A stretch of DNA of 64,000 bases from Bacillota bacterium (GTDB taxonomy: Bacteria; Bacillota; Dethiobacteria; DTU022): positions 1-64,000 of the forward strand of contig JAABTH010000008.1 of assembly GCA_011389985.1 (NCBI GenBank). The letters are read 5' to 3'. Made by a program: the position numbers and the translations under genes. Positions 5,275 through 55,667 of the stretch are shown here, piece after piece (position 1 is the first letter of the stretch; every line of letters begins with the position of its first letter). Under the pieces are notes generated by a model. It was not told the DNA's origin and did not search any database. It was given only the letters and a program-made list of their open reading frames with translations.

Positions 5275-5427
5275 CCACAGTATTTTTATGCCACTTTTAT
5301 TATATCCTACTTTTTCTTATTCAAACTCACTACTCCTCTATCCTCTCTTTTTTTAAATATTTTTTGCATTAGCCCCCTTGTATTATTATTTTAGTTCTGC
5401 TATAATCGCTTAATAATAAATGTAATA

Positions 5428-5670
5428 AAAGCTTTGAAGGGGATAAATACTCTGACATGCCGGATCAGAGAGGGGTTTTACAGCTGAAAAAGCCCCCGGC
5501 AGGATGAGGAATAAGCCACCCCGGAGCTGTTGTGCCGAAGCTTTAAGTAGCCTTAAGCACGACCGGCTGCAATGCCGTTACAGAAAATGAGAGGCTCGAA
5601 TTTGGGGCAACTGGAGTGGTACCGCGGGTTTTAAGCCCGTCTCTTATTAATTAAGAGACGGGCTTTTTGA
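5428..5670 (+). promoter_or_regulatory. T-box leader (riboswitch) upstream of the aminotransferase/his/pdx run
   Basis: Conserved T-box GGAGTGGTACCGCGGG (5613-5628) followed by terminator AAGCCCGTCTCTTATTAATTAAGAGACGGGCTTTTT; structured leader upstream. Confidence 0.92.
5633..5668 (+). terminator. T-box-associated terminator
   Basis: AGCCCGTCTCTTA..TAAGAGACGGGCTTTTT hairpin plus T-run. Confidence 0.9.
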
Positions 5671-13263: not shown

Positions 13264-15354
13264 TCAAAAACCGCTTTCTGCTGAACTTCTGCCTGTTCCA
13301 TCCAGGCGAACCTTATAAACCGTATCATCTTCGGTCTGATCAAGGAAAAAGATCCAATCTCCAATAACATTGATAAATCGAACAGGTTCTGAGGCAAGTT
13401 TTACCCGCTCTGTGCCATCAAAACGTACTTTGTTCAGGGAAAAATTGTCTTCTGCATCAGCATAATAAATCCACCCTTTTGTCGCATTAATAAACCAGGA
13501 CGACCTTTCATTTACAGCGGCATTTTCTGTTCCATCAGGCTTCATACGGTACAGTTTTGAACCTTCAGCTTCATTACTATAGTAAATCCAACCATCACTT
13601 ATACTGATATTACTGGAAGCATGCTCATTTAACACTTCTCTGCCACCAGCATCTGATCGAATCCTATAGATTTTATTACCATCATCGCGGTTAATGTAGT
13701 AAATCCACTCATCCATGACATTAATAAACCAAGCTGAATCATCACTAAGCCTTGTCTTACCTTCGCCATCAATATTGATTTTATATAAACGGTATTCATC
13801 GTTTTGATCAAGATAATAGAGCCAACCGTCGTCGAGAGTGACAAACCAAGCACCCCCGTCAGTAAGAGCTGCTCTCCCACCGCCATTGACATCTATTTTG
13901 TAAATTCTGTTTTGATCATCCCGATTGCTGTAGTAGATCCAGCCTCCCGCTACGTTAATGAACCAGGTCGAATCAGCGCTAAGTACGGTGGCGCCACTAC
14001 CATCTAGCTTGCCCTTATGCAAACTGCCTCCTTCATTTGATCGAAAATAGATCCAATCTTCCTCTGTAGCCACCAGTCCACCATTAATGATGTTGCCTGC
14101 GCTGTTACCAGTAGTATTTACGGTGGTTAATTGTTGTTCTTCCAATAAAGGTTCATTTACTTCTTCAAGCGGTTCGTCCAATGGCTCGGCTACAGTTTCG
14201 GTGCCCAAAAAACCTCCATTCCAAAGGAAATAACCAGCGGCTCCAACAGCAAGCACTAATAATAAACCTATGAGTAAAAAGGGTGAAAAACCTTTTTTCG
14301 CAACCTTCTGCTGGCTGACACTTTTGCTTTCAATAACCTGTGAAGCTGAAGTGTTTACAGCCATGCTTTCTAGTGGCACATTGCCCATCAAAGCTGATTG
14401 AAACTCTTCAACAGTTTGGAAACGATTATCAGCCCTTACAGCCAGTGCTTTTAATAGTGCTCGTTCTTCATTTTCATTCAATTCTGAACCCAGCTGGGTC
14501 GGTGGTTGCAGAGGATCATCAACTAACCTCTCAAGCGATTCAGGAGGCTGTTGACCAGTAATTAAATGATAATAAGTGGCAGCTATTGCATAGATATCTG
14601 TCCAGGGCCCCTGGATCCCTTTACTACGATACTGCTCTTCAGGTGCATAACCGGGCTTAAGTATGATTGAAAGGCTGCGGCCTTTTTCGCCAATCGCTTG
14701 ACGGGCAGCTCCAAAATCGATAAGAATTACCTGTCCTTTTTTATTAATAAATATGTTATCAGGGCTGATGTCGCGGTGCAGCACGTTTACAGCATGTACT
14801 TCACGTAACGCATCCATAACAGGCATCAATATTCCCCTAGCTTGATCTATTGGCAATATGCCACCGGAATTAGCCAGATGCTCTTTGAGCGTGATTCCTT
14901 CAACATAACTCATTACAAAATATGCTGTACCATTAGCCTTAAAAAAATCTCGAACTGAGACTATATTAGGATGGCCTTCAAACTTGGCCAGTGTTCGAGC
15001 TTCCTGTAAGAATTTATCGAGACCATATTCATACTGGCTACCCATACTTCCGGAATAGGCGGATACCTGACTATGGCCGGCAGCACGAGAGGCAAGATCT
15101 TGCGGGAAATACTCTTTGATTGCCAGTTTAACATTTAAATTTAAATCCCAAGCCAGGTAGGTTATTCCAAACCCTCCCTGGCCAAGAACCCTGCCAATTA
15201 AATATTTATTCTCTAAAACTGCCCCGGGTGGTAAAAAAAGCGGAGATTCAGGCTCTGTCCCCTCGATAAAACCACAAACTGGGCATTTAAGATCTCCTTC
15301 TTTCTTCTTACTCATGCAGCCCAAACAAAGATTTTCTACTTCCAAGCGGTTCAC
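13264..15354 (-). CDS. Membrane Ser/Thr protein kinase: N-terminal zinc-ribbon, kinase domain, TM helix, DUF5050-like repeat ectodomain
   Basis: CLGC..CPVCG; GQGGFGITYLAWD, LAIKEYF, LHRDISPDNIFI, LIDFGAAR; TM GFSPFLLIGLLLVLAVGAAGYFLW; about six WFINV..GWIYYxNRDD..IYKI repeats. Confidence 0.9.
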   Translation of the reverse strand: MNRLEVENLCLGCMSKKKEGDLKCPVCGFIEGTEPESPLFLPPGAVLENKYLIGRVLGQGGFGITYLAWDLNLNVKLAIKEYFPQDLASRAAGHSQVSAYSGSMGSQYEYGLDKFLQEARTLAKFEGHPNIVSVRDFFKANGTAYFVMSYVEGITLKEHLANSGGILPIDQARGILMPVMDALREVHAVNVLHRDISPDNIFINKKGQVILIDFGAARQAIGEKGRSLSIILKPGYAPEEQYRSKGIQGPWTDIYAIAATYYHLITGQQPPESLERLVDDPLQPPTQLGSELNENEERALLKALAVRADNRFQTVEEFQSALMGNVPLESMAVNTSASQVIESKSVSQQKVAKKGFSPFLLIGLLLVLAVGAAGYFLWNGGFLGTETVAEPLDEPLEEVNEPLLEEQQLTTVNTTGNSAGNIINGGLVATEEDWIYFRSNEGGSLHKGKLDGSGATVLSADSTWFINVAGGWIYYSNRDDQNRIYKIDVNGGGRAALTDGGAWFVTLDDGWLYYLDQNDEYRLYKINIDGEGKTRLSDDSAWFINVMDEWIYYINRDDGNKIYRIRSDAGGREVLNEHASSNISISDGWIYYSNEAEGSKLYRMKPDGTENAAVNERSSWFINATKGWIYYADAEDNFSLNKVRFDGTERVKLASEPVRFINVIGDWIFFLDQTEDDTVYKVRLDGTGRSSAESGF

Positions 15355-15572
15355 CCCATTTGAATCTTGCTAAATATGATTTAAAACTAGTGCACTGGCT
15401 GTAAATCTTGATTAACTTCAAACCTTATTGTGGCCTACCTAGTTCACTTTATAATTTTTAGCTAATGGTAAACTTTTATCCTTTATAGAATAGCATATTA
15501 CAATACTATCAACTACCCCTGAAAATATAAATTTCAGGTGGTAAAAACTCTTTAAACAAAAAAGATTGTTAT

Positions 15573-16805
15573 TTACTGCTTACCGATTTCAAAGAGCTCA
15601 TTCGGGTTTGCCAGGTAAAAGCGATCGCCGGTTTTAAGTATGTAAGGTTTCCCGGAGACTAATTTTTCACCACTGGCCAGATAGGTTCCATTGCTTGAAG
15701 AATCAATGAGAACGTAGGTATTTGTCGCTTGATCATAGCTAACTGTACAGTGTTTTCGGCTGATGCTGCCCTCCGTTTCAGGGTATGAAACCTGGGATAG
15801 AGCCGGATCCCGGCCGATCACCAGTTGGCCTTTATTAAATTTAAAACTTTGACCGGCAAATTTTCCTTTAATCCCAACCAAGGGAGCCCGATTGGCAAGT
15901 GCCTTGGCTTTTTGATTTTTAACAATCAGAAAACCAGCCAAAGCAAGAAATATAAAAACCCCAATTAGAATATAAGGATAACTTGATTCCTTATCATTAG
16001 TCACAATCGGCTCAGTTTGATCAACGGGTACTAAATCCTGTTCATATTCATCAGCTATCTCTATCGGTGGTTCAACTTGATCATCGGATATAGGAGCAGA
16101 TACTGAAACATTAACCACACAAAATACAGTAATACTATTATCATCAACAGAGCGAGCTATAATCCGTGCTTCCCCTTCCTTGTGAGTTTTTACTCTCGCC
16201 TGGGGGTTTGGCGAAGTGGTTCTGGCAGGATCGATTGGAACAACAGAGGCTACCCCTGCTTCCGTTGATGACCAGATCAAATCCTGGTTCGTGGCATCTG
16301 TCGGCACAATCTTTACCGTTAAGACAACTTCTTCATTTGGACCAATGTTCAAGGCAGTTTGATCTAAAGAAAGCGACCGAACAGGAATGATCACATTCAC
16401 ATCACATGTGGCAGTTTTACCTCCATCAACAGTAGTTACCGTGATAGTTGTTGTTCCTCCTGAAAGTGCAGAAATGGAAGCTGTTGTTGGCCCCGTTGCT
16501 CTTACATCAACTGTTCCCATGGCACTTGATGCCCAGGTGATACTTTTATCAGTTGCATTTTGCGGGTCTACTGTTGCTGTTAAAGTCGCTGATTGGCCCA
16601 CCCTGAGGGTTATGTTATTTCGATCAAGGCTTACTCTTGTTACATTAATAATACCCTGTGCCCATGTAATTGATTCAGAAGTTGAGAAAATAAAACCTGG
16701 TTGTCCTACTAAAAAAAAGAAGATTAAGATCGTAACAGCTAAAATTGCAAGCTTACGGACCACCCTTTTCACCTCACCTGTTCCTGATCGGATCGTGTAT
16801 CCCAT
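15573..16805 (-). CDS. Membrane protein: N-terminal TM/signal, two Big_2-like (Ig-like) domains, TM, cytoplasmic FHA domain
   Basis: LRVGQSATLTATVDPQNATDKSITWASS..., TM YILIGVFIFLALAGFLIV, FHA LVIGRDPALSQVSYPETEGSISRKHCTVSYD..DSSSNGTYL. Confidence 0.88.
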   Translation of the reverse strand: MGYTIRSGTGEVKRVVRKLAILAVTILIFFFLVGQPGFIFSTSESITWAQGIINVTRVSLDRNNITLRVGQSATLTATVDPQNATDKSITWASSAMGTVDVRATGPTTASISALSGGTTTITVTTVDGGKTATCDVNVIIPVRSLSLDQTALNIGPNEEVVLTVKIVPTDATNQDLIWSSTEAGVASVVPIDPARTTSPNPQARVKTHKEGEARIIARSVDDNSITVFCVVNVSVSAPISDDQVEPPIEIADEYEQDLVPVDQTEPIVTNDKESSYPYILIGVFIFLALAGFLIVKNQKAKALANRAPLVGIKGKFAGQSFKFNKGQLVIGRDPALSQVSYPETEGSISRKHCTVSYDQATNTYVLIDSSSNGTYLASGEKLVSGKPYILKTGDRFYLANPNELFEIGKQ

Positions 16806-16808
16806 TAA

Positions 16809-18380
16809 TCAATCAAAAAGTAATATCACTATGTATACAATGATAAATATCCCCAATATAGCAGCGCCAGCAAGCATGTACAGCTTGCCGAGGCCAGGAT
16901 AGATCTTTTTATTATCCTGATTTTGATTAACCTGCTGCGAATAGTAATTCGAATCATTTTTTAAATGTATATTATCTAAATCTAAAAGTATATTTCCATT
17001 AACATCAATTAACTGATTGTTATTAAAATTGATTAAATAATTACTAAGTTGAATTACAGTCCCGGGAGAAAGAGTTACCTCACCTTCAACCGGCTTACCA
17101 TTTATTTGTGTTCCATGAGTACTACCAAGATCACTTAATACCCAGCTTCCTGCTCGATTCTCAATGCTTGCATGATACCGTGAAACCATACTTTCACTGA
17201 TAATCAAATCGTTATCCTGAGCTCTACCAATTCTTATTTTTATCCCTGAAGCACCAGTCTTTTTATTGACAGTTGAAGTATAAGCAGTCTGTACAGAAAC
17301 TGAATCAACTGCAACAGGTGAATCCGGATAATAGTAAGGTTGCCTTTGAACTTGATAATCAGTTTTATCCCTCGAATGTTTAGAGCGATCTTCCTCTTCG
17401 GTAGTTATTGTGCGGGAAAGAGGCATTAATGCATCCTGAAAATCAGCTATACTTTGATAGCGATCTGCCGCTCTTACTTCCATTGCTTTCAACAAAGCAG
17501 CTTCTTGTTCAGCTGTAATAGTAATACCAAGCTGGTTTGGCGGGATCAGAAGATCATCATTTAAACGATCCAGCGATTCGGGTGGCATCCGATTTGTAAC
17601 AGCACGATAAAGGGTCGCAGCTACAGCGTATATATCTGTCCAAGGCCCCTGTATTCCATTACTGCGATATTGTTCCTCCGGAGCATATCCAGGCTTAACG
17701 ATTACTGAGTATTTACTTCCTTTTTCTCCAAGGGCATGACGGGCAGCTCCAAAATCAAGCAACATGACTCTTTTATTGACAGTTATCATAATGTTATCCG
17801 GACTGATATCGCGATGCAGAAGTCCTCCGTCGTGCAGGTAACGAAGGGCATCAAGGACAGGCATAATTACCTTAATTGCTTCATCAAACGACATTCCAGC
17901 GACTCGTTGATCAAGAAAATCAGCAAGGGTAAGCCCTTCAAGATAGCTCATTACCATGTAAGCTGTATCGTTTGCCTCAAAATAATCACGGACAGATACT
18001 ATATTCGGATGCCCTTCAAAGCGAGCTAAATTTTTTGCCTCGTCGAGGAATTTAGAAAGCCCATAATTATACTGTTCAGCCTGTGTACCCTGGTAAATAG
18101 AGACTGTTTCTGTTACCGGATCACGAAAAACAAGTTCGCGAGGAAAAAATTCTTTAATGGCCAATTTTCTTTCTAAATATAAATCCCAAGCCAAATAAGT
18201 TATCCCAAAGCCACCCTGACCGAGAACCCGGCCCAATAAATATTTTTCACTGAGCAAGGTGCGCATTGCTATATGTAAAGGTGAAGCAACAGGAGTTCCT
18301 TCGATCCAGCCACAATATGGGCAAGATTCAACTTCCCCTTTTTCTTCCATACAGCCCATACATAAGTTAGTGAGCTCCAT
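16809..18380 (-). CDS. Ser/Thr protein kinase with N-terminal zinc ribbon, FHA domain and C-terminal TM
   Basis: CMGC..CPYCG; GQGGFGITYLAWD, LLHRDISPDNIMI, LLDFGAAR; FHA IRIGRAQDNDLIISESMVSRYHASIE..DLGSTHGTQING; C-terminal hydrophobic segment. Confidence 0.92.
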   Translation of the reverse strand: MELTNLCMGCMEEKGEVESCPYCGWIEGTPVASPLHIAMRTLLSEKYLLGRVLGQGGFGITYLAWDLYLERKLAIKEFFPRELVFRDPVTETVSIYQGTQAEQYNYGLSKFLDEAKNLARFEGHPNIVSVRDYFEANDTAYMVMSYLEGLTLADFLDQRVAGMSFDEAIKVIMPVLDALRYLHDGGLLHRDISPDNIMITVNKRVMLLDFGAARHALGEKGSKYSVIVKPGYAPEEQYRSNGIQGPWTDIYAVAATLYRAVTNRMPPESLDRLNDDLLIPPNQLGITITAEQEAALLKAMEVRAADRYQSIADFQDALMPLSRTITTEEEDRSKHSRDKTDYQVQRQPYYYPDSPVAVDSVSVQTAYTSTVNKKTGASGIKIRIGRAQDNDLIISESMVSRYHASIENRAGSWVLSDLGSTHGTQINGKPVEGEVTLSPGTVIQLSNYLINFNNNQLIDVNGNILLDLDNIHLKNDSNYYSQQVNQNQDNKKIYPGLGKLYMLAGAAILGIFIIVYIVILLFD

Positions 18381-18410
18381 TTTTCTCTCCCCGGGTGAAT
18401 CAATTCAGAA

Positions 18411-18968
18411 TTATTCGGCCTTGTTTTCCACATCATTTACCATATTCCAATGAAATCTTTCGCTGCACATTGGTATAAACAGCAGCTTAGTTTGACCTAC
18501 TTCGATAATGTCATAGCTATAGAGTTCAACAGGCATAATAACCTCTTCTTCATTCAAAAAAACGAGGCCTTTACTGTCTCCGGGAAACAGCCTGAAAGCA
18601 AGATTCTTCGGGTTAAAACTAACTACCGCATGGTTCTCTCTCGAGATAGTTTGATCGTCAACAATACTTACATCCATTTTTTCCGATCGCCCGATAAAAT
18701 TTTTCTCCGCTGTTATTCTGAAATCTTGACCTTTAACTGGACCACTAATGGCCACAAGCCAACCAACCACTGGATCAATTCCCAGTTTTTGTTTATATAT
18801 ACCTACCGTTTTTCCAGCTTCTCCAGCCGGAGCATTTCCTGATCCCGGTCTTTTAGCCATCGTTTTTTGAATATCAATATTAAGCTCCTGAACACCGCAA
18901 AAAGGGCAAGATGAATGTTTCTTTGAATCGTAATAATGACCATTCTCACATCTGGTTAATGGTTCCAT
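18411..18968 (-). CDS. FHA domain protein with N-terminal zinc-ribbon-like motif
   Basis: MEPLTRCENGHYYDSKKHSSCPFCG; NFIGRSEKMDVSIVDDQTISRENHAVVSF. Start set at the ATG with GGAGGATATAT upstream. Confidence 0.85.
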   Translation of the reverse strand: MEPLTRCENGHYYDSKKHSSCPFCGVQELNIDIQKTMAKRPGSGNAPAGEAGKTVGIYKQKLGIDPVVGWLVAISGPVKGQDFRITAEKNFIGRSEKMDVSIVDDQTISRENHAVVSFNPKNLAFRLFPGDSKGLVFLNEEEVIMPVELYSYDIIEVGQTKLLFIPMCSERFHWNMVNDVENKAE

Positions 18969-19030
18969 GATATATATCCTCCAGTTAATTAATAGCAAAA
19001 CAACTTTAGTTTGTAACCGTTGGCTGTCAA

Positions 19031-19756
19031 CTAGCCAAGCCTGACTGCCACTGCCGAATAATTATCATGCCCAGCTTCAGCACGTTTTAAAAGCAACCTT
19101 TCCATTTGGTTTAGCCAAGGCACCGCGCCTTTCGTTTTCTGTAAACATAACTCCATCTCAATTTCTGTTATATATTCCCAGAAACCATCGCTACACAACA
19201 AAAAAGCATCTCCATTAACAACAGTTTGTAATTCAGCCGATACTTCAAATTTTAAATTATTCCCACCATCAAAGGCAGCCGTAAGACGATTGCGGTCTTC
19301 ATGAAAACGGATCTCTTCCGGTTTAATGATTCCACTGTCTGCCAGTTTTTGCGGAACACTGTGATCTTTTGTCTGGCTTTTAATAACACTCTGCTGAAAA
19401 TAATAGAGACGCGAATCGCCAACATGACCCCAGAGAGCATTACTTCCATCAGTAAGTAAAACCACTAATGTCGCTTTCATATTTTTATTAGCTGCGTCGG
19501 CCTGTTGAACTGATAAATAAACCTGGCTTGTCTTTTCAATATAATTAATCAGCATTTGAGAATTAAGCCCCGGGGAAGCCTTAAAAAACCCTAGCAAAGC
19601 TTCCCCGATTGTTCTAGATGCCAATTCTCCCTTTTGGTGACCGCCCAAACCATCTGCGAGAACATAACACCCGATGCCGTCTGCTTCTACAAAACAACAG
19701 TAATCCTCGTTGTTTCTTCGGCCACCAGCCTTAGAAATCATCGCTGTCTGCAGCAT
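19031..19756 (-). CDS. PP2C-family Ser/Thr protein phosphatase
   Basis: RRNNEDYC, VLADGLGGHQ, GHVGDSRLYYF, LLCSDGFWEY, HDNYSAVAV: metal-binding motifs present. Confidence 0.92.
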   Translation of the reverse strand: MLQTAMISKAGGRRNNEDYCCFVEADGIGCYVLADGLGGHQKGELASRTIGEALLGFFKASPGLNSQMLINYIEKTSQVYLSVQQADAANKNMKATLVVLLTDGSNALWGHVGDSRLYYFQQSVIKSQTKDHSVPQKLADSGIIKPEEIRFHEDRNRLTAAFDGGNNLKFEVSAELQTVVNGDAFLLCSDGFWEYITEIEMELCLQKTKGAVPWLNQMERLLLKRAEAGHDNYSAVAVRLG

Positions 19757-19762
19757 CAGGAG

Positions 19763-21358
19763 TTATCCCTTCTTCAGTTCAAAGGATTCCTTTGGATCCG
19801 CAAGATAAAAGCGATCCCCAGGGTTAAGGTAATAAGGCTTTCCGTTTTCCAAGCGCTGATTTGATGATAAAAATGTTCCATTTGATGATGAGTCTTCCAG
19901 TATAAATTTATTTGTCCGCTCATCATAACGAATCGTAAGATGCTTTCTGCTGATCTCTTCGTCTGTCTGCGGATAAACAAGTTGAGCAAAGCGTGGATCC
20001 CGACCAATAACCAACTGTCCATCGACAAATTCAATCGACTGGCCGGCGAAGTGTCCGGAAACACCCTTGACCAGAGCAATTGGCTTTATTGGTTTTGCCT
20101 TAGTTACCGGTGCGCTTACCGGCTCAGGTTTAGCCTGTGTAACCGGTGAAGGAGTCCTTTGAGTTACAGCCCCCTGGGCACCTGCTGTTGAAGAAACGGG
20201 AGACGCTTGCTTTTTGCCGCCACCCCTGGTGGCCAAGATCACAATCATGATTATTAAAAGAGCCGCTGCCGCACCAATGCCGATAATCAAGGGTGAAATT
20301 CCAGTTTTTTTCTCAATTGCATTTGAGCTTGACGAAAGTGGTCCATCAAGGTAATCACCTCCACCGATGGATTTAACCTGGGCTGTGTAAATACCTGCTC
20401 CAAATTCATCAATTTTCTCACTTAAGTCAACCAGTGTTGTATTTGCACCTACTGAAGCAGAGTAGACACTTTGACCATCTCTGTAGAGAAATATTTCATA
20501 TCCCTGTGCGCCGGAAACCGAATCCCAGCTTACAAGACCTTCAGCAGAGAGGTTGAGGTTAACTGCTGTCGGCAATGGCTGTGGTTCGACAACCACAGGT
20601 TCTTCCTCTTCAACCGGGGGCACAGTGCCTGCCTTCAAGTAAGCAATACCCCGCCCCTCAAGAACATCGACCAGAGCATTTATGTCTACACCGCCTGAAG
20701 TGCCAACTGCAACACCGGGAACATCCCTGATCGCAACGCCAACGACAACTCCATCTGTATTAAGAAGCGGTCCTCCTTCAACATCAGTATTAATTTGAAC
20801 CCGATCTTCCAACACGTAACGACCGTTTACCGTACGGCTGTAAATACTCTTTATAACTGATACATCTTGATACCTGGCCGCCTGAGCATCCCGGGGAAAA
20901 CCAAGAGCATAAATATCATCACCGATATTAACCATTGAACGATTACCAATTTGTAGGGGTTCATAAGGGAAAAGGTGATGTTCCGGATCAAGCCTGAGCA
21001 GTGCTATATTTGACTGCTGTAAAGGCACATAAATTGTAGCCGGAACAAAGTCATCCGCCGAACGCCAAACATAAATGTCGGCATTCTGAATCGTGCCTGC
21101 CCTCACTACATCCCAGCTGGTTGCAATGTACTGAAAAGGTGGCTGATCGCCTATTACAAAACCAGAGCCCTGCCTGATAACATTTCCCGCAACGGCTGCA
21201 TTGGTACCCCTTGTCACCACTCTAATGCGCACAATACTTTTAGTAGCCTCGTCAATTGAAGTTTGAGCAGATACCGTTCCAAGGCTAAAAAGTAAAGCTA
21301 TAACAAATAGAATAATAATTAAAGCTCGACATGTACTCGTTTTCTTTATCATCACCAA
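19763..21358 (-). CDS. Membrane protein: trypsin-like ectodomain (apparently catalytically dead), FN3-like domain, TM, cytoplasmic FHA
   Basis: Signal; SGFVIGDQPPFQYIATSWDVV..SNIALLRLD..INTDVEGGPLLNTDG; FN3-like VNLNLSAEGLVSWDSVSGAQGYEIFLYRDG; TM ISPLIIGIGAAAALLIIMIVIL; FHA LVIGRDPRFAQLVYPQTDEEISRKHLTI. Confidence 0.87.
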   Translation of the reverse strand: MVMIKKTSTCRALIIILFVIALLFSLGTVSAQTSIDEATKSIVRIRVVTRGTNAAVAGNVIRQGSGFVIGDQPPFQYIATSWDVVRAGTIQNADIYVWRSADDFVPATIYVPLQQSNIALLRLDPEHHLFPYEPLQIGNRSMVNIGDDIYALGFPRDAQAARYQDVSVIKSIYSRTVNGRYVLEDRVQINTDVEGGPLLNTDGVVVGVAIRDVPGVAVGTSGGVDINALVDVLEGRGIAYLKAGTVPPVEEEEPVVVEPQPLPTAVNLNLSAEGLVSWDSVSGAQGYEIFLYRDGQSVYSASVGANTTLVDLSEKIDEFGAGIYTAQVKSIGGGDYLDGPLSSSSNAIEKKTGISPLIIGIGAAAALLIIMIVILATRGGGKKQASPVSSTAGAQGAVTQRTPSPVTQAKPEPVSAPVTKAKPIKPIALVKGVSGHFAGQSIEFVDGQLVIGRDPRFAQLVYPQTDEEISRKHLTIRYDERTNKFILEDSSSNGTFLSSNQRLENGKPYYLNPGDRFYLADPKESFELKKG

Positions 21359-21379
21359 TCATCCCTCTTCTCTAAATTA

Positions 21380-22225
21380 TTAATTATCAAAATTGCAGGT
21401 TAAAAGTATAGCAGTTATATTATCCTGATATGGTTGCTTTTTTGCTAAAGCATGCTTTACTAGTTCTTCCGCAGTGATTTGTTCCGCTCTGTTTAAATAG
21501 CTATTTATTTCTTCATCGTCAAGTGTATTTGTCAAACCATCACTGCAGAGCAAAATATGATCTCCTGTCTGTAGTTTTAAGGGCTCACTATTGTAAGCTA
21601 TTTCCATTAATTCGGATAATCCGAGAAAACTGGTTAAATATGCTCCCTCAGGGTGACTATCGGCCTCCTCCCTTGTTACAATCCCTTGCTTAACCTTATC
21701 CAACAATTGATTCTTATAGGTGTGATCCCTGTTAAGCTGAATAAGGGAAGCTTCACGATGGTGATAGATACGGCTATCCCCAGCTGCAATCCAATACATA
21801 TCAGACTCGCATATCAGAGTAGCAACAATTGTTGTCCCAAGCTCAATTTCCTGCCCATCTTTGTATGCAAGATCATATACGGCAGTGTTTGATCTAAGCA
21901 GTGCACGGTGCAATCTTACTGATGGCAACTCATTAGGTTTAACCGGCATGTATTCCTTTAAAAAGCACTTTGCCGCAACACGGCTGGCTTCTTCACCGTA
22001 GGAGAGCCCACCCATACCATCGCATACTAATGCCAATACACCACTGTTATTGGTTAAATGATGATCTCCAAGATCAGAAATTGCAAAAGCATCTTCTTGA
22101 TTCTCGCGATCTCCAATATGCTGATAATTAGAAGGAATCACGTGCAACTGATTACTCAGAACCGGCAAACCATGCTCAATTATTCCACTCGCTTTATTTT
22201 TTTTCTTAAATACAGAAAAACCCAA
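21380..22225 (-). CDS. PP2C-family Ser/Thr protein phosphatase
   Basis: GDRENQEDAFAI, LVCDGMGGLSYGE, IAAGDSRIYHHR, LLCSDGLTNTL, YQDNITAILL. Confidence 0.93.
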   Translation of the reverse strand: MGFSVFKKKNKASGIIEHGLPVLSNQLHVIPSNYQHIGDRENQEDAFAISDLGDHHLTNNSGVLALVCDGMGGLSYGEEASRVAAKCFLKEYMPVKPNELPSVRLHRALLRSNTAVYDLAYKDGQEIELGTTIVATLICESDMYWIAAGDSRIYHHREASLIQLNRDHTYKNQLLDKVKQGIVTREEADSHPEGAYLTSFLGLSELMEIAYNSEPLKLQTGDHILLCSDGLTNTLDDEEINSYLNRAEQITAEELVKHALAKKQPYQDNITAILLTCNFDN

Positions 22226-22420
22226 CCAAAAAGCGCCCCTTTCTATGCCTAAAACTCAGGCAATAATCACACTTTAATTTTATTAAAATAATTCTATGTT
22301 GTAGACAGTATTACCTGCGACGATTATTAAATTTGTATTTAATAAAAGAATTTGCATGAGCCCCAGTTGGATAGTTAAGTCTTTAACTCTTATGGAAAAC
22401 CTGCATTCTAATTGATTTAT

Positions 22421-23416
22421 CTAACTGAATATCGTCTGGCTAAAACGATATACGTTTCCTACCAATAGTGCTGAAATCGCCTGGGCATAAAAAAATCCGG
22501 CAATAGCTAGCACCCAACCAATTACAGGGAGGATCGCTAACAAAACCATCGCGACCCAAATGGCGATAAAGATAAGAATTACCAAAACATATTGTGGTAA
22601 AACAGCTTTGATGCGCATGAAGATTTTATTCATTTGAAAAGCGGAAGCAACTTGACCACTTGCAGCATAAGTGGCCCAAGCCATGGGCAGCAAGAAAGCA
22701 GAAAGTAGAAAAAAGAATAAACTGAAAGAAAGACCAAGGGCCTTTAATAAGCTGGAAGTATTTGTTGAAGTTATAACATAAACCATTGATAAAATCATGG
22801 ATGCTGGTAATAACAAATAAACCGCTTTAATAAAAAACAGGAAAAGCCCTTTTAAAAAAAGATCACCAAAATCAGTCCATTCAGGCATTTCCAGTTTGCC
22901 AGTGTATCCATTATTGATCAATCGCAAACGATACCCACCAGCAAAAAATTCAAAGAATGGGAATGATGATAAAGCGGCTCCAAACAAAAATTTAAGTAGT
23001 CCCCTACCAAATAGTGGTGCAGCCATAATTTCGGGCACTGACAAAACCATTTGTGGGTCATAAAACTCAGCGTTTGCCGGAGAGTGCTTGCTTAACTTAA
23101 ATGGCAATTCAGATTCGTCAAACCAAATTAACTCTAAACAGTTACTTCCAATGACAACTTTGTCTCCAGGGTTAACCAGGGCCTGTTCTAAAACTTTTTT
23201 TCCATTAATAAAAGTTCCATTTAAACTGTCTAAATCAAAAATGTAAAAATGACCATCGCTAAGGGTTTTTATACTGGCATGTTTGCGGGAAACGCTAGAA
23301 TCGGCAAGGGTAAAATATTCGTCACCAGAATCACGGCCGATTATTACTTGACCTTCTGACAATGCAACATATGCTCCTCTATCAGGGCCTTCCTTAACTT
23401 CAATGAACCAAGGCAT
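22421..23416 (-). CDS. FHA domain protein with C-terminal multi-TM region
   Basis: N-terminal VIIGRDSGDEYFTLADSSVSRKHASIKTL..DLDSLNGTFINGKKV, then several hydrophobic segments. Confidence 0.85.
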   Translation of the reverse strand: MPWFIEVKEGPDRGAYVALSEGQVIIGRDSGDEYFTLADSSVSRKHASIKTLSDGHFYIFDLDSLNGTFINGKKVLEQALVNPGDKVVIGSNCLELIWFDESELPFKLSKHSPANAEFYDPQMVLSVPEIMAAPLFGRGLLKFLFGAALSSFPFFEFFAGGYRLRLINNGYTGKLEMPEWTDFGDLFLKGLFLFFIKAVYLLLPASMILSMVYVITSTNTSSLLKALGLSFSLFFFLLSAFLLPMAWATYAASGQVASAFQMNKIFMRIKAVLPQYVLVILIFIAIWVAMVLLAILPVIGWVLAIAGFFYAQAISALLVGNVYRFSQTIFS

Positions 23417-23451
23417 TAATATATGTCTCCTTAGTTATATATGAGATTAAT

Positions 23452-24405
23452 TTATCTGTAATTTACTTTATTTATCTCATGTAAATATCCTTCATACCGC
23501 GATCTGTGAAAACTAATTCTGCTATTTGTATTGCTTATTTTTGTATCAATATCTTGTAAAGCTTTTTTTAATTCTTGCTCACTTAGATTCATTTGGTAAT
23601 ATTTGCTTCTCTGTTCATAGAGATCCTGCTGCTGTTGTTCTAATTGCTTAATTATTTCTTGCTCAACCCTTACGTATTCTTGCATTGAAGATAATGCATC
23701 AGGATCTATTTCACTACTTTTAGTTTCCTGATTAACTGCATCGACTACCCTTATAGTCGGCCCAAAAAGATCTATGATGAATCTCGGAAGATTTTCTGCA
23801 CTCCCAAGAGGATCATTAATAAAATCAAGTATCTTTTCGAGATAACCAGGCTCAGCAAAAGCTCCTTTAAAACTTTTAATAATCGCGTTGATTATTTGCA
23901 ACCATTCAGGTTCTTGTTCGAATTCATAGAGACTATTAAAGGATTCTTGATCCCAATAACCTTCAGGGTATTGAAACTCTTCGTAGCCAGAATCTATACG
24001 AATAGAATTATTTTCATGTTTATTATATTGATCATCAAATTCCACGTAGGGGTCTTCTGATTGATAATGATCGCCATATATATCGTTGGTATAGAAATCA
24101 TCATGATTGCAATTGTTACAATCTTCACTGTTTATAACATTACCAGATCCATTATTACCATATGTTGAGTAAACAGGGTTGTTTAAAACCCACCAATGTT
24201 CATCGTACGAGTTTACTTCGTCGGCAAAAGGCAACTCCCACCAGTTAGCTACAATCCAATTTTGCTCTAAAGCGCTAACTATGCCTGCCGATTGAAATAG
24301 ACTTACAAATACAAGTAATAAGATCAATGCGCGGGATCTCTTTAATTGACGGAATTTTAGCAGGGTAATAAGGCTGGTGATAAATGACAATATCTTATCT
24401 AACAT
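23452..24405 (-). CDS. Hypothetical secreted/anchored protein: acidic Asn/aromatic-rich segment plus C-terminal coiled coil
   Basis: Signal-like N-terminus (LILLLVFVSLFQSAGIVSA), low-complexity EDCNNCNHDDFYTNDIYGDHYQSEDPYVEFDDQ, C-terminal EQEIIKQLEQQQQDLYEQRSKYYQ coiled coil; no family recognised. Confidence 0.7.
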   Translation of the reverse strand: MLDKILSFITSLITLLKFRQLKRSRALILLLVFVSLFQSAGIVSALEQNWIVANWWELPFADEVNSYDEHWWVLNNPVYSTYGNNGSGNVINSEDCNNCNHDDFYTNDIYGDHYQSEDPYVEFDDQYNKHENNSIRIDSGYEEFQYPEGYWDQESFNSLYEFEQEPEWLQIINAIIKSFKGAFAEPGYLEKILDFINDPLGSAENLPRFIIDLFGPTIRVVDAVNQETKSSEIDPDALSSMQEYVRVEQEIIKQLEQQQQDLYEQRSKYYQMNLSEQELKKALQDIDTKISNTNSRISFHRSRYEGYLHEINKVNYR

Positions 24406-24600: not shown

Positions 24601-24629
24601 TTGACAAGTCTAATTCTGGCATGTATACT
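24601..24629 (+). promoter_or_regulatory. Sigma-70-type promoter of glnA
   Basis: TTGACA - 17 nt - TATACT. Confidence 0.8.
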
Positions 24630-24643
24630 TTTTGTGGGCAAAG

Positions 24644-24686
24644 GCGCCCGCTTAAACAGTCGAATGACTGTCAGCGGGCGCTTTTT
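24644..24686 (+). terminator. Leader terminator/attenuator hairpin between the glnA promoter and the ORF
   Basis: GCGCCCGCT-TAA-ACAGTC-GAAT-GACTGT-C-AGCGGGCGC-TTTTT, about 15 nt after the -10 box and about 35 nt before the ATG. Confidence 0.82.
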
Positions 24687-24719
24687 ATTTAACCACTATA
24701 TTAAAAGGAGCTGTTTTTG

Positions 24720-26181: not shown

Positions 26182-26763
26182 ATGTCTGATAACCAGTATG
26201 ATTTCTGCATAGGGACAACCGACTCAGTTCTAAAGCGAGAAGTAGTGACTGTGCTGAATCGTGCCGGTTACCACTCATCAGGCGATGCAAAAAGTATCCC
26301 TCTTTTTTTACGTTTGATTCGAACTGTTCAGCCCTGGCTTGCTGTCATAGATACCAATCTACCTCCGGGAAATATAAAGGAACTGGCCGACATTATAGAA
26401 AGTGACGGTTTGGCAGCGGCTATCTTTATTAATACAACAGGTATCAATATGAATCGCTACACTCTATTAAACTGGCCGGTGGATGAAACAGTGCTGGCAG
26501 CAGTTGCAAACGCCGTGTGCAATGAATTTAAACATAAAAAAAGGATGCATGAGAAAATTGCATCCCTTCAGCAAAAGCTTAACGACCGTAAGAGTTTAGA
26601 TAAAGCAAAAGGAATTCTAATGAATCTTTATAAACTGAACGAAGAAGAGGCTTATCGCTTCATGCAGAAAAACAGCATGAGACATCGATTATCAATGATT
26701 GAAATAGCCAACCTTGTAATTAGCTCTCCCGACTCTTTTTCATCTCAATTGCAGCTCCGATAA
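26182..26763 (+). CDS. ANTAR-domain antiterminator with receiver-like N-terminus
   Basis: C-terminal [54 protein letters not shown] (ANTAR three-helix pattern). Confidence 0.85.
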
Positions 26764-28924: not shown

Positions 28925-31900
28925 ATGGATTTAAGCCCAAACGCCCGCATTACTTACGAAAAACGTTACCTGATCAAAGATGAGAAAGGCAGCCCCATCG
29001 AAAAACCCGAAGACCTGTTGCGCAGAGTTTCAGCAAATATTGCCTCCATAGAAAAAAATTATGGAAAAGATGATCAAGATATTGAAGAGATCGAAAAATC
29101 ATTTTACAACATGATGGCAAATGCTGAATTTATGCCCAATTCACCGACGCTTATGAATGCGGGGCGAGAACTCCAACAGTTAAGCGCCTGTTTCGTGTTA
29201 CCGCTGGAAGATAGTATGGAGGGGATATTTACCGCCCTTAAGAATATGGCTCTGGTTCAGAAAACCGGTGGCGGAACCGGTTTTGCCTTCGATCGACTGC
29301 GCCCGAGCAATGATCTCGTGAGATCAACAAACGGAGTAGCCAGCGGACCATTATCATTTCTAAAGATATTTGATGCTGCAACTGAAGCAGTTAAACAGGG
29401 AGGGACCAGGCGCGGCGCCAACATGGGCTCGCTAATTTATAACCACCCTAATATCCTTGAATTTATTATCTGTAAAGAAAACGAAGATGAAATTAACAAT
29501 TTCAACTTATCAGTCACTGTTTCCGATGAATTTATGAAAAAAGCCATCGGCGATGATCCCGATCCTCTTTATAACCTGATCAACCCCCGGACAAAAGAAA
29601 TATATTGCGACCCTGAAACCGGCAACCCAGTTCAGCTGGATGCCAGGGAAGTTTTTGATCTGATTGTTCAAAAAGCCTGGGGAAAGGGCGACCCGGGTAT
29701 AATCTTTATAGACCGGATGAACCAGTTTAACCCCACCCCTAATATTGGTATTTATGAAACGACTAATCCCTGTATCCCCGAAGATACTTTTATCATGACC
29801 ACCGCAGGCCCAAAGACAGTCAAAAATCTAATCGGAGTTAAGTCAACCTTAATAATTAACGGCATGCCATACCAAACCAGCAAAAGGGGCTTTTTCTCTA
29901 CCGGTAAAAAGCGGCTTTTATCAATCAAAACAAGGGAAGGCTTTAAGGTAAGAGCGACTGTCGATCATCCACTGCTCAGGGTAAATAAAAAAACCCGTTA
30001 CAGTATGGAAACTGAATGGATAGACGCAGGCGCATTAAAGACGGGAGATGAATTGGTTCTCCATAATCATTATTCATTTAAAGAATGGCCGGGGCTCTAT
30101 AGTGAAGATGAGGGTTACCTGATTGGCCTGTTAATCGGTGACGGCACCCTAAAGAAAGATAAAGCGCTTCTATCCGCCTGGCCAGACCACGGCAACCGAG
30201 GCATTATCAACAAATCTTTTGAGGCAGCCCAAACCTTGCCGTGCCGAGCAGATTTTAAAGGCTGGTGGAAAGTAAGCAACCGCAATGAATATAGAATGAG
30301 CCTCGCCTCTTTAAAAAAAGTAGCTCTCTCCCTTGGTATGCGGCCTGGCGATAAAGCTATCACACCATTCCTTGAAACTTCTACTTCATCAGCCTTCGGC
30401 AAAGGTCTGCTTAAAGGTATTTTTGATGCTGATGGTTCTGTACAGGGCTCACAGGAAAAAGGGCTATCAGTGAGGCTGGCCCAAAGTGACCTGGCCAGAC
30501 TGGAAGCGATTCAGCGTATGCTGGCCCGTTTTGGTATTATCAGTACTATTTATAGAGAGAGAAGAAAAAAAGGTCAGACAAAACTACCTGATGGCAGGGG
30601 CGCTTATAAGATTTACAACATTAAAGCTCAACACGAGCTGATTATAACCAAAGACAACTTAATCAGGTTCGCAGAGATGGTAGGCTTCAACGATACAGCC
30701 AAAAAGTGCCGTCTTGCCACCGCACTAAAACAGTATAAAAGAAAATTAAATCGTGAGCGCTACACCGTAACGATAGATTCAATCACTCCCGATCAAATTG
30801 AGGATGTTTATGACGTACAGGTTCCCGGCATTAACTCCTTTGATGCAAACGGAATCATCGTTCATAACTGTGGCGAACAACCACTGCTGCCTTATGAAGC
30901 ATGTTGTCTCGGTTCAATCAACCTCGGTAAGTTTGTATCTGAAAAACAAAAGATTGAATGGGATAAGCTTGCAAAAACTGTTAAAACTGCAGTCCGTTTT
31001 CTTGACAATGTGATAGATGCCAGTAATTACGTAATTCCTGAAATAGCCGCCATGCACAAAGAAGGCAACCGTAAAATAGGCCTGGGCATAATGGGCTGGC
31101 ATGACATGCTGGTCAGGCTTGGCATAAATTATGACAATGAAAAAGCAATTGAAACTGCTGAAGAAGTAATGCAGTTTATAAATTCAGAAGCAAAAAAAGA
31201 GTCAGTTGTTCTGGCTGCTGAAAGGGATGTATACCCCAATTTTAAGGGAAGTATTCATGATAACGGTAAAACCGAAGACCGGGTTCGAAATGCTACCCGG
31301 ACTACTATAGCTCCAACAGGTACTATCTCCATACTGGCCAGTGCCAGCAGCGGCATTGAACCTTATTTCAGCATAGCATTTATCAGAAAAAATATTTTAG
31401 GTGGTCTAGATCTACCAGAGGTTAATCCTGTGTTCCTGGAATTTGCACAAAAAGAAGGGTTTTATAGTGATGAATTGATCAAGGAGATTGCAAGTACCGG
31501 TAAAATACCGGAAGATTCGGATATACCGGGTAAGTATAAAGAATTATTTAAAACTGCTATGGAAATAGATTTCAGCTGGCATGTTCGCCATCAGGCAGCT
31601 TTTCAGAGACATACCGACAACGCTGTCAGCAAGACAATAAACCTGAAGCAGGAAGCTACTGCGGATGATGTTAAAAATGCCTATATAACCGCATGGGAAG
31701 CTGGATGTAAAGGCATTACGATATACAGGGACAGCTCAAGAACCAAGCAGGTCCTAAATGTCGGGGACGGACAATCAGAAGAAACTATTAAACCGACTAA
31801 GCGGCCGAAAACTTTAAGCGGTAACACAACCAGTATCAGAACTGCTCTCGGCAATCTTTTTGTAACAGTTAACACTGCAGACACCAAACCATTTGAACTA

Positions 31901-32242
31901 TTTGCCCAGATTGGTAAAGCAGGCAGCGATGTAGTTGCTTTCACAGAAGCGATAGCCCGCCTGATATCACTGGCCTTACGTTGCGGAGTTAGTGTGGACG
32001 AAATCGTAACTCAGCTCGAAGGTATTGGTGGCGCCAGATCCGTAGGTTTTGGTCCAAACCGCATTATGAGCGTACCTGATGCTATCGGCCAGGCGCTACG
32101 TAAATTGGCCCTGGTTGAAGCCGGTGATGAAGTCCTTAATGGCAATCACCAGCTTGAAATTTGCCCTGACTGCGGCACATGTGCCCTTATAAGGGCTGAA
32201 GGTTGTTTAAAATGCGAAGCCTGTGGTTTTAGCGAATGTTAA
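28925..32242 (+). CDS. nrdJ: Adenosylcobalamin-dependent (class II) ribonucleoside-diphosphate reductase with an in-frame intein
   Basis: LSACFVLPLEDSMEGIF, KTGGGTGFAFDRLRP, GTRRGANMG, CGEQPLLPYEACCLGSINL, ATRTTIAPTGTISILA; C-terminal CPDCG..CxxCG. Confidence 0.95.
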   Translation: MDLSPNARITYEKRYLIKDEKGSPIEKPEDLLRRVSANIASIEKNYGKDDQDIEEIEKSFYNMMANAEFMPNSPTLMNAGRELQQLSACFVLPLEDSMEGIFTALKNMALVQKTGGGTGFAFDRLRPSNDLVRSTNGVASGPLSFLKIFDAATEAVKQGGTRRGANMGSLIYNHPNILEFIICKENEDEINNFNLSVTVSDEFMKKAIGDDPDPLYNLINPRTKEIYCDPETGNPVQLDAREVFDLIVQKAWGKGDPGIIFIDRMNQFNPTPNIGIYETTNPCIPEDTFIMTTAGPKTVKNLIGVKSTLIINGMPYQTSKRGFFSTGKKRLLSIKTREGFKVRATVDHPLLRVNKKTRYSMETEWIDAGALKTGDELVLHNHYSFKEWPGLYSEDEGYLIGLLIGDGTLKKDKALLSAWPDHGNRGIINKSFEAAQTLPCRADFKGWWKVSNRNEYRMSLASLKKVALSLGMRPGDKAITPFLETSTSSAFGKGLLKGIFDADGSVQGSQEKGLSVRLAQSDLARLEAIQRMLARFGIISTIYRERRKKGQTKLPDGRGAYKIYNIKAQHELIITKDNLIRFAEMVGFNDTAKKCRLATALKQYKRKLNRERYTVTIDSITPDQIEDVYDVQVPGINSFDANGIIVHNCGEQPLLPYEACCLGSINLGKFVSEKQKIEWDKLAKTVKTAVRFLDNVIDASNYVIPEIAAMHKEGNRKIGLGIMGWHDMLVRLGINYDNEKAIETAEEVMQFINSEAKKESVVLAAERDVYPNFKGSIHDNGKTEDRVRNATRTTIAPTGTISILASASSGIEPYFSIAFIRKNILGGLDLPEVNPVFLEFAQKEGFYSDELIKEIASTGKIPEDSDIPGKYKELFKTAMEIDFSWHVRHQAAFQRHTDNAVSKTINLKQEATADDVKNAYITAWEAGCKGITIYRDSSRTKQVLNVGDGQSEETIKPTKRPKTLSGNTTSIRTALGNLFVTVNTADTKPFELFAQIGKAGSDVVAFTEAIARLISLALRCGVSVDEIVTQLEGIGGARSVGFGPNRIMSVPDAIGQALRKLALVEAGDEVLNGNHQLEICPDCGTCALIRAEGCLKCEACGFSEC
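29771..30868 (+). mobile_element. Intein (366 aa) with LAGLIDADG-type homing endonuclease inside nrdJ
   Basis: Starts at Cys (NP|CIPEDTFIMT), block-B-like ATVDHPLL, GLLIGDGTL and GIFDADGSV, C-terminal VYDVQVPGINSFDANGIIVHN|C; frame preserved. Confidence 0.95.
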
Positions 32243-35308: not shown

Positions 35309-35398
35309 TGGTGCCGGAGACCGGAATCGAACCGGTACGACCATGTTATGGTCGAGGGATTTTAAGTCCCTTGCGTCTGCCTGTTCCGCCACTCCGGC
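35309..35398 (-). tRNA. tRNA-Leu (TAA)
   Basis: Minus-strand GCCGGAG..CTCCGGCACCA with long variable arm; loop ACTTAAAAT. Confidence 0.94.
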
Positions 35399-35405
35399 GA
35401 AAGTT

Positions 35406-35478
35406 GGAGGCGACACCCGGATTCGAACCGGGGATGAAGGATTTGCAGTCCTCTGCCTTACCACTTGGCTATGTCGCC
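35406..35478 (-). tRNA. tRNA-Cys (GCA)
   Basis: Minus-strand GGCGACA..TGTCGCCTCCA, loop CTGCAAA. Confidence 0.94.
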
Positions 35479-35485
35479 AAAAAAA

Positions 35486-35560
35486 TGGAGCGGAAGACGA
35501 GATTCGAACTCGCGACCCTCGCCTTGGCAAGGCGATGCTCTACCACTGAGCTACTCCCGC
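35486..35560 (-). tRNA. tRNA-Gly (GCC)
   Basis: Minus-strand GCGGGAGTAGCTCAGTGGTAGAGC.., loop TTGCCAA, CCA encoded. Confidence 0.95.
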
Positions 35561-35565
35561 ATACC

Positions 35566-35641
<76 letters not shown>

Positions 35642-35645
35642 AATA

Positions 35646-35722
35646 TGGCGGAGCTGACGGGACTCGAACCCGCGGTCTTCGGCTTGACAGGCCGATATGT
35701 TAACCAACTACACCACAGCTCC
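35646..35722 (-). tRNA. tRNA-Asp (GTC)
   Basis: Minus-strand GGAGCTGTGGTGTAGTTGGTTAACA.., loop CTGTCAA, CCA encoded. Confidence 0.95.
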
Positions 35723-54609: not shown

Positions 54610-55644
54610 CTAAATAGCCACATAGTTAAGACCGGCTTCTTCCGGCAGACCCAGCATTATATTCATATTTTGAACAGCCTGTCCGGAAGCGCCCTTAAGC
54701 AGGTTATCAATAACCGAAATAACAATAATACGATTATTACGATTGTCATATTTAACTGCGATGTCGCAAAAATTACTGCCACGAACCAAACGGGTTTCAG
54801 GTAAAGATGGACTTTTCAATACCCGCACAAATGGAGCTTCTCTGTAGAATGCTTCGAATAAATGATTAAGCTCTTTTTCATTGATTAACTCTGTCGGTTC
54901 GGTGTAAATAGTACTTAATATGCCCCTTACCATTGGAACCAGATGAGGTGTAAATGTTACCCTTAAGTCCTTACCTGCTAATCGACTAAGCTCCTGTTCA
55001 ATTTCTGCAGTATGTTGGTGATTAGCCACCCTGTAAGCCTTAAAGTTTTCTGTACAGTCAGGAAAATGAAAAGGCTGTTTAGGAGCTCTGCCCGCCCCGG
55101 AAACACCGGATTTTGAATCAATAATTATGCCGTCCGTTTTTATTATCTTTTTGCTGAGAAGTGGAGCAAGCGCAAGTAAAATACTGGTTGGATAACAGCC
55201 TGGGTTGGCAATAAAGTCTGTGCTTTTGATCATATCTTTATTAAGCTCCGGAAGACCGTAAACTGCTGTGCCAAGCAGTGCTGCAACGGGATGCTCCAGA
55301 TCATACCATTCTTGGTACAAAGAAGAATCGCCCAACCTGAAATCAGCGCTTAAATCAATAACTTTAAACCCCTTTTTATAGAGTTTTGCCGCTGTCTCTG
55401 CCGAATGACCATGAGGTAGGGCGCAAAAAACCACTTCAACCGATTCAGGTATTTCTTCAACTCTAATCTGTTGCAGAACCAGATCAACCATGCCCCTAAA
55501 CTGAGGATGTATTTCACTGTATTTTTTACCGGCAGTACTTCCCGAGCATAATAATACTGGTTCAACTGCCGGATGGGCTTTTAGTAAGCGTACCAACTCA
55601 ACGCCCGTATAACCGGTTGCTCCCAAAACTGCCGTTTCGATCAT
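54610..55644 (-). CDS. argC: N-acetyl-gamma-glutamyl-phosphate reductase
   Basis: AVLGATGYTGVELVRLL, IANPGCYPTSILLALAPL, SGVSGAGRAPK; start trimmed to ATG with GGAGGGG upstream. Confidence 0.95.
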   Translation of the reverse strand: MIETAVLGATGYTGVELVRLLKAHPAVEPVLLCSGSTAGKKYSEIHPQFRGMVDLVLQQIRVEEIPESVEVVFCALPHGHSAETAAKLYKKGFKVIDLSADFRLGDSSLYQEWYDLEHPVAALLGTAVYGLPELNKDMIKSTDFIANPGCYPTSILLALAPLLSKKIIKTDGIIIDSKSGVSGAGRAPKQPFHFPDCTENFKAYRVANHQHTAEIEQELSRLAGKDLRVTFTPHLVPMVRGILSTIYTEPTELINEKELNHLFEAFYREAPFVRVLKSPSLPETRLVRGSNFCDIAVKYDNRNNRIIVISVIDNLLKGASGQAVQNMNIMLGLPEEAGLNYVAI

Positions 55645-55667
55645 CTTATACCCCTCCAAAATAAATT

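Follow-up and report, generated by a model that had tools for sequence, protein, structure and literature searches.

Nine consecutive genes on the minus strand of the window analyzed here, a 64,000-nucleotide stretch of DNA from a Bacillota bacterium of the class Dethiobacteria (GenBank assembly GCA_011389985.1, contig JAABTH010000008.1, positions 1 to 64,000), form a conserved and portable island of Ser/Thr kinase, PP2C phosphatase, and FHA genes (13264-24405). The nine genes are a real unit: all nine positions keep their order in a genome from another family, where the flanks differ, and a core of them does so in further genomes. From the sequences, we give about an even chance to the island specifying a self-contained envelope-sensing complex that would be assembled through phosphothreonine (pThr) and would carry swappable ectodomains. 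Clusters of Ser/Thr kinase (STK), PP2C, and FHA genes are already known as a kind, as in PASTA/Stp, the type VI secretion system (T6SS) pathway, the type VII secretion system (T7SS) sets T7SSc to T7SSj, and the mycobacterial pknB operon; this set is new. No paper describing a trypsin/FHA, PP2C, and zinc-ribbon/FHA set was found in the open literature (subscription literature being outside the scope), and none of its members reached a cut-off among the curated NCBIfam equivalogs.

Composition of the island

The features of the island are as follows.

13264..15354, minus strand: kinase 1, with a zinc ribbon, STK domain, transmembrane (TM) segment, and beta-propeller-type DUF5050 ectodomain (Pfam Pkinase 7.5e-31, DUF5050 1e-68)
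15573..16805, minus strand: Ig-FHA, with a signal segment, two Ig-like Big_2 domains, TM segment, and cytoplasmic FHA domain (Pfam Big_2 5e-16, FHA 8e-12)
16809..18380, minus strand: kinase 2, with a zinc ribbon, STK domain, FHA domain, and C-terminal TM anchor (Pfam Pkinase 1.3e-32, FHA 5.6e-19)
18411..18968, minus strand: zinc-ribbon/FHA, soluble, with an N-terminal CxxGH...CPxC ribbon and an FHA domain (Pfam); a GarA/OdhI-like candidate hub
19031..19756, minus strand: PP2C phosphatase (a), metal motifs intact (Pfam PP2C_2 4.2e-11)
19763..21358, minus strand: trypsin/FHA, with a signal segment, HtrA-like pseudoprotease, FN3-like domain, TM segment, and FHA domain (Pfam Trypsin_2 2.1e-16, FHA 9.3e-13)
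20093..20233, minus strand: TM-FHA linker of the trypsin/FHA protein, disordered, with paired PVTxxK motifs (T407, T419) as candidate phosphosites
21380..22225, minus strand: PP2C phosphatase (b), metal motifs intact (Pfam PP2C_2 1.4e-14)
22421..23416, minus strand: FHA-DUF4013, with a cytoplasmic FHA domain and a polytopic membrane domain (Pfam FHA 5.1e-16, DUF4013 7.5e-20)
23452..24405, minus strand: orphan (ORF9), secreted or anchored, with a C-terminal coiled-coil-like region, coding-type codon usage, and a ribosome-binding-site-like GAGGAG

All nine open reading frames of the original prediction were recovered, and its description of the catalytic motifs as intact holds for the G-loop, K, HRD, DFG, and APE motifs of the kinases and for the metal motifs of the phosphatases. 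By Pfam, the island encodes two STKs, two PP2Cs, five FHA domains, and one orphan secreted protein, and codon usage is of the coding type in 9/9 frames. Most of the five FHA domains carry the residues that contact pThr. A hydropathy scan placed the one TM segment of kinase 1 between its kinase and DUF5050 domains, a C-terminal anchor on kinase 2, a signal segment and a TM segment in both Ig-FHA and trypsin/FHA, and at least four TM segments in FHA-DUF4013; in the predicted topology, the trypsin, Ig, and DUF5050 domains lie outside and every catalytic or FHA part lies inside. Judging by its homologs, the zinc-ribbon/FHA gene probably starts at the ATG at 18968.

Across the whole 1.9-Mb genome, every detected FHA domain sits in the island, as do two of the three STKs. 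Because the genome search gave no FHA domain elsewhere, the island is the cell's entire detected FHA apparatus. The third STK is a PASTA kinase with three PASTA repeats, which adjoins a PP2C on its separate contig.

Conservation of the module in other genomes

All nine positions are kept in order in G372, a finished genome of 3.56 Mb that belongs to the same class but to a different family; its locus reads secreted Big_2 protein, FHA-DUF4013, PP2C, trypsin/FHA, PP2C, zinc-ribbon/FHA, STK-FHA, Ig-FHA, and STK. The FHA-DUF4013 gene thereby holds an equal position in both genomes, the orphan position is taken in G372 by the unrelated secreted Big_2 protein, and the flanks of the G372 locus are unrelated to those of the window. 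For ORF9 itself, no similarity to the G372 protein at the same position was detected, and no convincing homolog was found in 43 same-family genomes (a weak 15-bit match only). The core order, namely PP2C(b), trypsin/FHA, PP2C(a), and zinc-ribbon/FHA, followed by an STK and/or Ig-FHA, is kept in eight further genomes (G007, G028, G059, G018, G009, G035, G031, and G060) and in L044, a Tindallia metagenome-assembled genome (MAG). Most of the genomes compared are fragmented MAGs, and the core loci of the first seven of these genomes and of L044 are either complete or truncated solely where a contig ends. Ig-FHA also adjoins a kinase in G007, G028, G018, G009, G372, and Tindallia. The original prediction had made its case depend on conservation of the neighbors in relatives, and gene order is preserved in ten other loci.

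The trypsin/FHA protein was found in 8 of 60 genomes and the zinc-ribbon/FHA protein in those same eight; within the class, the frequency is 10/98 genomes. In a sample of the phylum, the wider zinc-ribbon/FHA family occurs in 17 of 399 genomes, and a profile search with trypsin/FHA gave six genomes with matches over both halves. Plasmid carriage was considered and set aside, the trypsin/FHA protein having given no plasmid match.

Transcription units and origin of kinase 1

Junctions described in the original prediction as 4-36 nt measured 3-35 nt and so stand nearly as given, but two gaps are larger: 195 nt from FHA-DUF4013 to PP2C and 218 nt from Ig-FHA to kinase 1. Because of these gaps, and because kinase 1 lies merely 42 nt from purF (itself 17 nt from guaA), the sequence suggests that three transcription units fit better than one, and the proposed co-transcription of all nine genes is no longer favored. 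A scan for promoters and terminators returned counts no higher than in shuffled sequence and was hence uninformative.

The window and G007 have common flanks, with glnA-ANTAR and pyrG on one side and purF-guaA on the other. In G001, which belongs to the same genus, the island is absent and the glnA-purF distance is 158 bp; the 15 codons just before purF encode VLLDGTGKSQVESGF and are followed by a stop, a stub that corresponds to the end of kinase 1, RLDGTGRSSAESGF. On its sequence, this stub is what a deletion has left of a DUF5050 gene that may or may not have carried its kinase, and G001 was therefore ruled out as a naive empty insertion site. Elsewhere, a single-pass DUF5050 protein is encoded directly before purF in G020 and likewise, with two more genes, in G003 and G015; a GYF_2 domain was confirmed on the G003 protein, and the N-termini of those of G015 and G020 look alike. 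At loci L174, L176, and L177 of island-less relatives, a stand-alone single-pass DUF5050 gene is the apparent first gene of the purF-guaA operon.

Kinase 1 aligns to the stand-alone GYF_2-TM-DUF5050 proteins of G003, G015, and G020 only from residue ~328-344, at 41-45% identity, and this starting point falls just after its kinase domain. In the tree, the kinase domain of kinase 1 falls together with those of the G007 and G060 terminal kinases (support 97/98), and kinase 2 is the sister of a G028 kinase (support 98/94). The G060 terminal kinase carries a MORN repeat in place of DUF5050. We infer from these sequences that kinase 1 is the module's terminal kinase fused to a resident purF-operon DUF5050 gene, a chimera recognized here for the first time, which would explain both the 218-nt gap before kinase 1 and the short gap to purF.

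A pseudoprotease ectodomain

AlphaFold2 modeled the trypsin/FHA protein with a mean pLDDT of 75 and predicted its protease and FN3 parts well, and a fold search with this model matched HtrA proteases, in keeping with a trypsin-like fold. The catalytic triad of the window protein is replaced in the alignment (H->D83, D->N117, S->E194), which bears out the original description of a pseudoprotease. Among 14 aligned sequences, His, Asp, and Ser are all lost in the window, G007, and G028, with Glu replacing Ser in all three; G031 has lost the His alone, and the triad is intact in the other 10. Because the three triad-less sequences form one clade (support 100/99), the simplest reading is that the triad was lost once, in the ancestor of the window's clade, an event that appears not to have been described before.

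The dead HtrA-like domain may act as a sensor. The fold search also matched the S1C-NTF2 structure of RsgI9, a protease-like sensing ectodomain with reported polysaccharide binding (PMC12203970). With triad loss in one clade and live-protease sisters at the same operon position, the module may provide a natural comparison for the change from protease to sensor.

Candidate phospho-switches

GarA and OdhI, which close on their own phosphorylated tail, are the nearest solved structures to the zinc-ribbon/FHA protein, both by profile and by fold. Like them, it combines an FHA fold with a conserved Thr, a candidate phospho-acceptor, in its N-terminal tail. Counting from the ATG at 18968, Thr54 and the FHA-loop residues Gly93, Arg94, Ser109, and Arg110 show no variation among 21 sequences, and Thr36 is conserved within the core module; in the model, both threonines fall in a disordered stretch between the ribbon and the FHA domain. 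Since the NCBIfam OdhI equivalog scored 17.9 bits against a cut-off of 200, the protein appears to resemble the GarA/OdhI phospho-switch in design and not as a family member, a likeness newly noted here.

In the trypsin/FHA protein, the model shows the linker between the TM segment and FHA domain as disordered, and the motif VT[QRK]x[KR] occurs in 10 of 11 such linkers. In total, 19 motifs were counted in the 11 linkers versus a shuffle mean of 0.15 and a maximum of 3, which, the sequences being related, is not a formal probability. Paired "VTxxK" motifs are thus conserved in a disordered linker and represent new candidate phosphosites.

Exchangeable outer parts

The G028 operon contains an extra VanY-Big_2-TM-FHA protein with its zinc-ligand motifs HxxxxxxD and EPWH intact. 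As a predicted D-Ala-D-Ala carboxypeptidase joined to an FHA domain, this protein, which is new here, would point to peptidoglycan more directly than any other component. G028 and G031 also have FHA-FHA-ABC transporter fusion genes with an Rv1747-like layout next to the module (L032:467-2875 and L037:328-2799). The kinases of G372 and G060 carry MORN repeats, and vWA proteins occur in G390, G073, and a Lachnospiraceae locus, two of them being vWA-FHA proteins. Two Lachnospiraceae MAG loci (L046 and L052) contain five to six membrane STKs in tandem.

In ten more distant genomes, the zinc-ribbon/FHA gene adjoins a PP2C gene, and in most also DnaJ and STK genes; these distant loci include Hcp-like and GpD-like proteins and are contractile-injection-like loci. 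The Bacillota loci L196-L205 hold Hcp-like, GpD-like, and conserved unannotated proteins (e.g., one of 877 aa), DnaJ, two membrane PP2Cs, zinc-ribbon/FHA, and STK, and represent a T6SS-like or extracellular contractile injection system (eCIS)-like system poorly covered by any Pfam or PHROG family.

Proposed mechanism and alternatives

If the island does encode a pThr-assembled sensing complex, its operation could be pictured as follows: (i) ligand binding or a mechanical change at the ectodomains would alter kinase output; (ii) the kinases would phosphorylate linker threonines, T407/T419 of trypsin/FHA and T36/T54 of zinc-ribbon/FHA; (iii) FHA domains would bind these pThr sites in trans, gathering the membrane proteins around the kinases; (iv) in zinc-ribbon/FHA, the FHA domain may dock onto the protein's own pThr, as happens in GarA and OdhI, so that the hub closes and a target is either let go or captured; and (v) the two PP2Cs would reset the phosphorylation state. 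The inner circuit would be fixed, and the outer input or output would be swapped among a live or dead protease, Big_2, DUF5050, MORN, VanY, and, in other loci, vWA; in the window lineage, the terminal kinase would have taken up the DUF5050 ectodomain of the purF operon. Of the envelope-sensing phospho-relay originally proposed, the self-contained set of differing ectodomains, exchanged between relatives, is retained, whereas a strict phospho-relay gives way to an assembly switch of kinase, phosphatase, and FHA domains. The envelope-sensing role, which we infer, is strengthened by the VanY-Big_2-FHA gene in the operon of one relative.

Several alternatives have to be weighed against this reading. 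Related zinc-ribbon/FHA, PP2C, and STK genes accompany Hcp- and GpD-like proteins at Bacillota loci, and STK, PPM phosphatase, and FHA genes are found in T7SSc, d, e, f, and j, with DUF5050 in T7SSg (PMC11217815), so that the island might control, through Thr phosphorylation, a secretion or injection machine whose genes lie elsewhere or were once present (as in T6SS Ppk/Ppp/Fha or T7SSc-T7SSj). This appears unlikely: no WXG100 protein (PF06013) was matched in the whole genome, the B. subtilis control being positive; the large conserved marker protein of the injection-like loci was absent from 10/10 module genomes tested, while three carrier control genomes matched strongly; and the zinc-ribbon/FHA proteins of the distant loci form a group in the tree separate from those of the module (support 100/100). 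Metabolic regulation of the PknG-GarA/OdhI type, acting on glutamine or purine pathways, would suit the position of the island between glnA and purF, a site common to the window and G007, and the spacing of kinase 1 as first gene of the purF-guaA operon; GarA and OdhI as nearest solved structures also speak for it, and the zinc ribbon of both kinases recalls the rubredoxin-like domain of PknG (PMC8546545). However, other module loci have different flanks wherever flanks are visible, the glnA/purF site is occupied in relatives by stand-alone DUF5050 genes without the module, the curated GarA/OdhI cut-off is missed, and membrane ectodomains dominate, which makes such a role improbable.

A role in defense, as a kinase system against phages or for abortive infection that resembles KKP or PD-T4-6, is in our view highly improbable, although the patchy presence of the module within the class and its complete loss in the same-genus relative speak for it. 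The kinase domains match PADLOC PD-T4-6 models (E down to 4e-47), over the kinase domain only, with no curated cut-off and with many models matching alike; the matches are to generic kinase, PP2C, or protease domains, and no other component matches. Moreover, the flanks that were read hold no defense neighbors, PD-T4-6 includes neither PP2Cs nor secreted ectodomains, and the island differs in gene order and domains from the KKP triplet (PP2C-STK-STK with cold-shock and FHA domains), the PP2C-kinase-kinase order with a cold-shock domain not being present (PMC11341870).

The pThr-assembled sensing complex itself has points that count against it: the trypsin/FHA linker of G031 is without the Thr motif, the divergent FHA domain of zinc-ribbon/FHA is without the usual Asn, related sequences inflate the conservation counts, the envelope enzyme (VanY-FHA) is found in G028 only, and the wider zinc-ribbon/FHA relatives in injection-like loci mean that the ancestral job may have been the control of a nanomachine. 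More tentatively still, the module could represent a new class of envelope apparatus in the Bacillota. Its inner phospho-circuit of zinc-ribbon kinases, two PP2Cs, and a GarA-like hub would stay constant and would recruit FHA-tailed membrane proteins through pThr, and phosphorylation would so decide which surface enzymes or sensors assemble (live or dead HtrA protease, D-Ala-D-Ala carboxypeptidase, Ig, propeller, or vWA). Multi-component Ser/Thr phospho-signaling with FHA domains is well studied in Actinobacteria and in T6SS and poorly known in anaerobic Bacillota. A compact, portable module that holds the enzymes, all readers, and swappable outer parts would let one ask how external inputs are wired to one pThr switch, and the kinase 1-DUF5050 fusion beside purF illustrates how modules may gain ectodomains from resident genes.

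Genomic neighborhood in the window

The region around the island (7127-28333) is rich in glutamine-dependent enzymes (hisH, hisF, pdxS, pdxT, guaA, purF, and pyrG) together with glnA, and is largely conserved in relatives. The glnA leader (24628-24716) has a very strong stem-loop and U-run (z -5.4), with no Rfam match reported, and the gene that immediately follows glnA (26182-26763) encodes an ANTAR domain; from this sequence, ANTAR antitermination of glnA is probable. Further along, a ribonucleotide reductase (28925-32242) is split by an intein that carries a LAGLIDADG_3 domain and has a full-length match in the same-genus G001. The window also contains a tRNA cluster (35312-35722) and two T-box leaders, one before an aminotransferase gene (5425-5647) and the other (55682-55933) before the gene at 54610-55659.

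Comparison with known systems

The original prediction held that the island matches neither the PrkC/Stp nor the T6SS arrangement and has no recognizable T7SS component, and the PASTA, WXG100, and marker tests agree. Pfam found no PASTA domain in kinase 1 or 2, which scored 150 and 156 bits against the NCBIfam PknB_PASTA cut-off of 450, and no EssC/EccC FtsK-type ATPase among the nine genes (the whole genome was not searched for EssC/EccC). No Hcp/GpD/sheath machine was seen in the window genes scanned, and the best score to the TagH/VI_FHA family was 44 bits against a cut-off of 120. The claim that vWA/TerY is lacking needs qualification: Pfam found no vWA among the nine genes that would stand next to STK and PP2C as in the TerY-P triad, yet vWA does occur in more distant versions of the module.

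PrkC/Stp likewise pairs a membrane STK bearing an extracellular domain with a PP2C, but the island has no PASTA, and a PASTA kinase and PP2C are encoded separately in this genome. The mycobacterial pknB-pknA-pstP-fhaB-fhaA operon encodes two STKs, a PP2C, and FHA proteins acting on the envelope; in contrast, the island is without rodA/pbpA and has other FHA architectures and two PP2Cs. T6SS PpkA-PppA-Fha resembles it in uniting STK, PP2C, and an FHA reader in one cluster, with related regulators in the Hcp/GpD loci, and differs in that the injection-locus marker protein is absent from the module genomes tested. The T7SSc-T7SSj sets of Bacillota also cluster a membrane STK, PPM phosphatase, and FHA, with DUF5050 in T7SSg, whereas the island is without EssC/WXG100 and has two PP2Cs and the trypsin/FHA and Ig/FHA proteins, which are not described there (PMC11217815). 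Like the island, the actinobacterial GarA/OdhI-PknG/PknB systems have a small soluble FHA protein whose disordered N-terminal tail contains a conserved Thr, and a cognate kinase with a zinc-binding N-terminal module; in the island, a zinc ribbon replaces the GarA N-terminus, and the gene shares its operon with those for membrane FHA proteins and two PP2Cs. Finally, RsgI9 of Clostridium thermocellum displays an S1C/HtrA-like sensing ectodomain on a single-pass membrane signaling protein, as trypsin/FHA is predicted to do, but its inner part is an anti-sigma factor (PMC12203970), whereas that of the island protein is an FHA domain.

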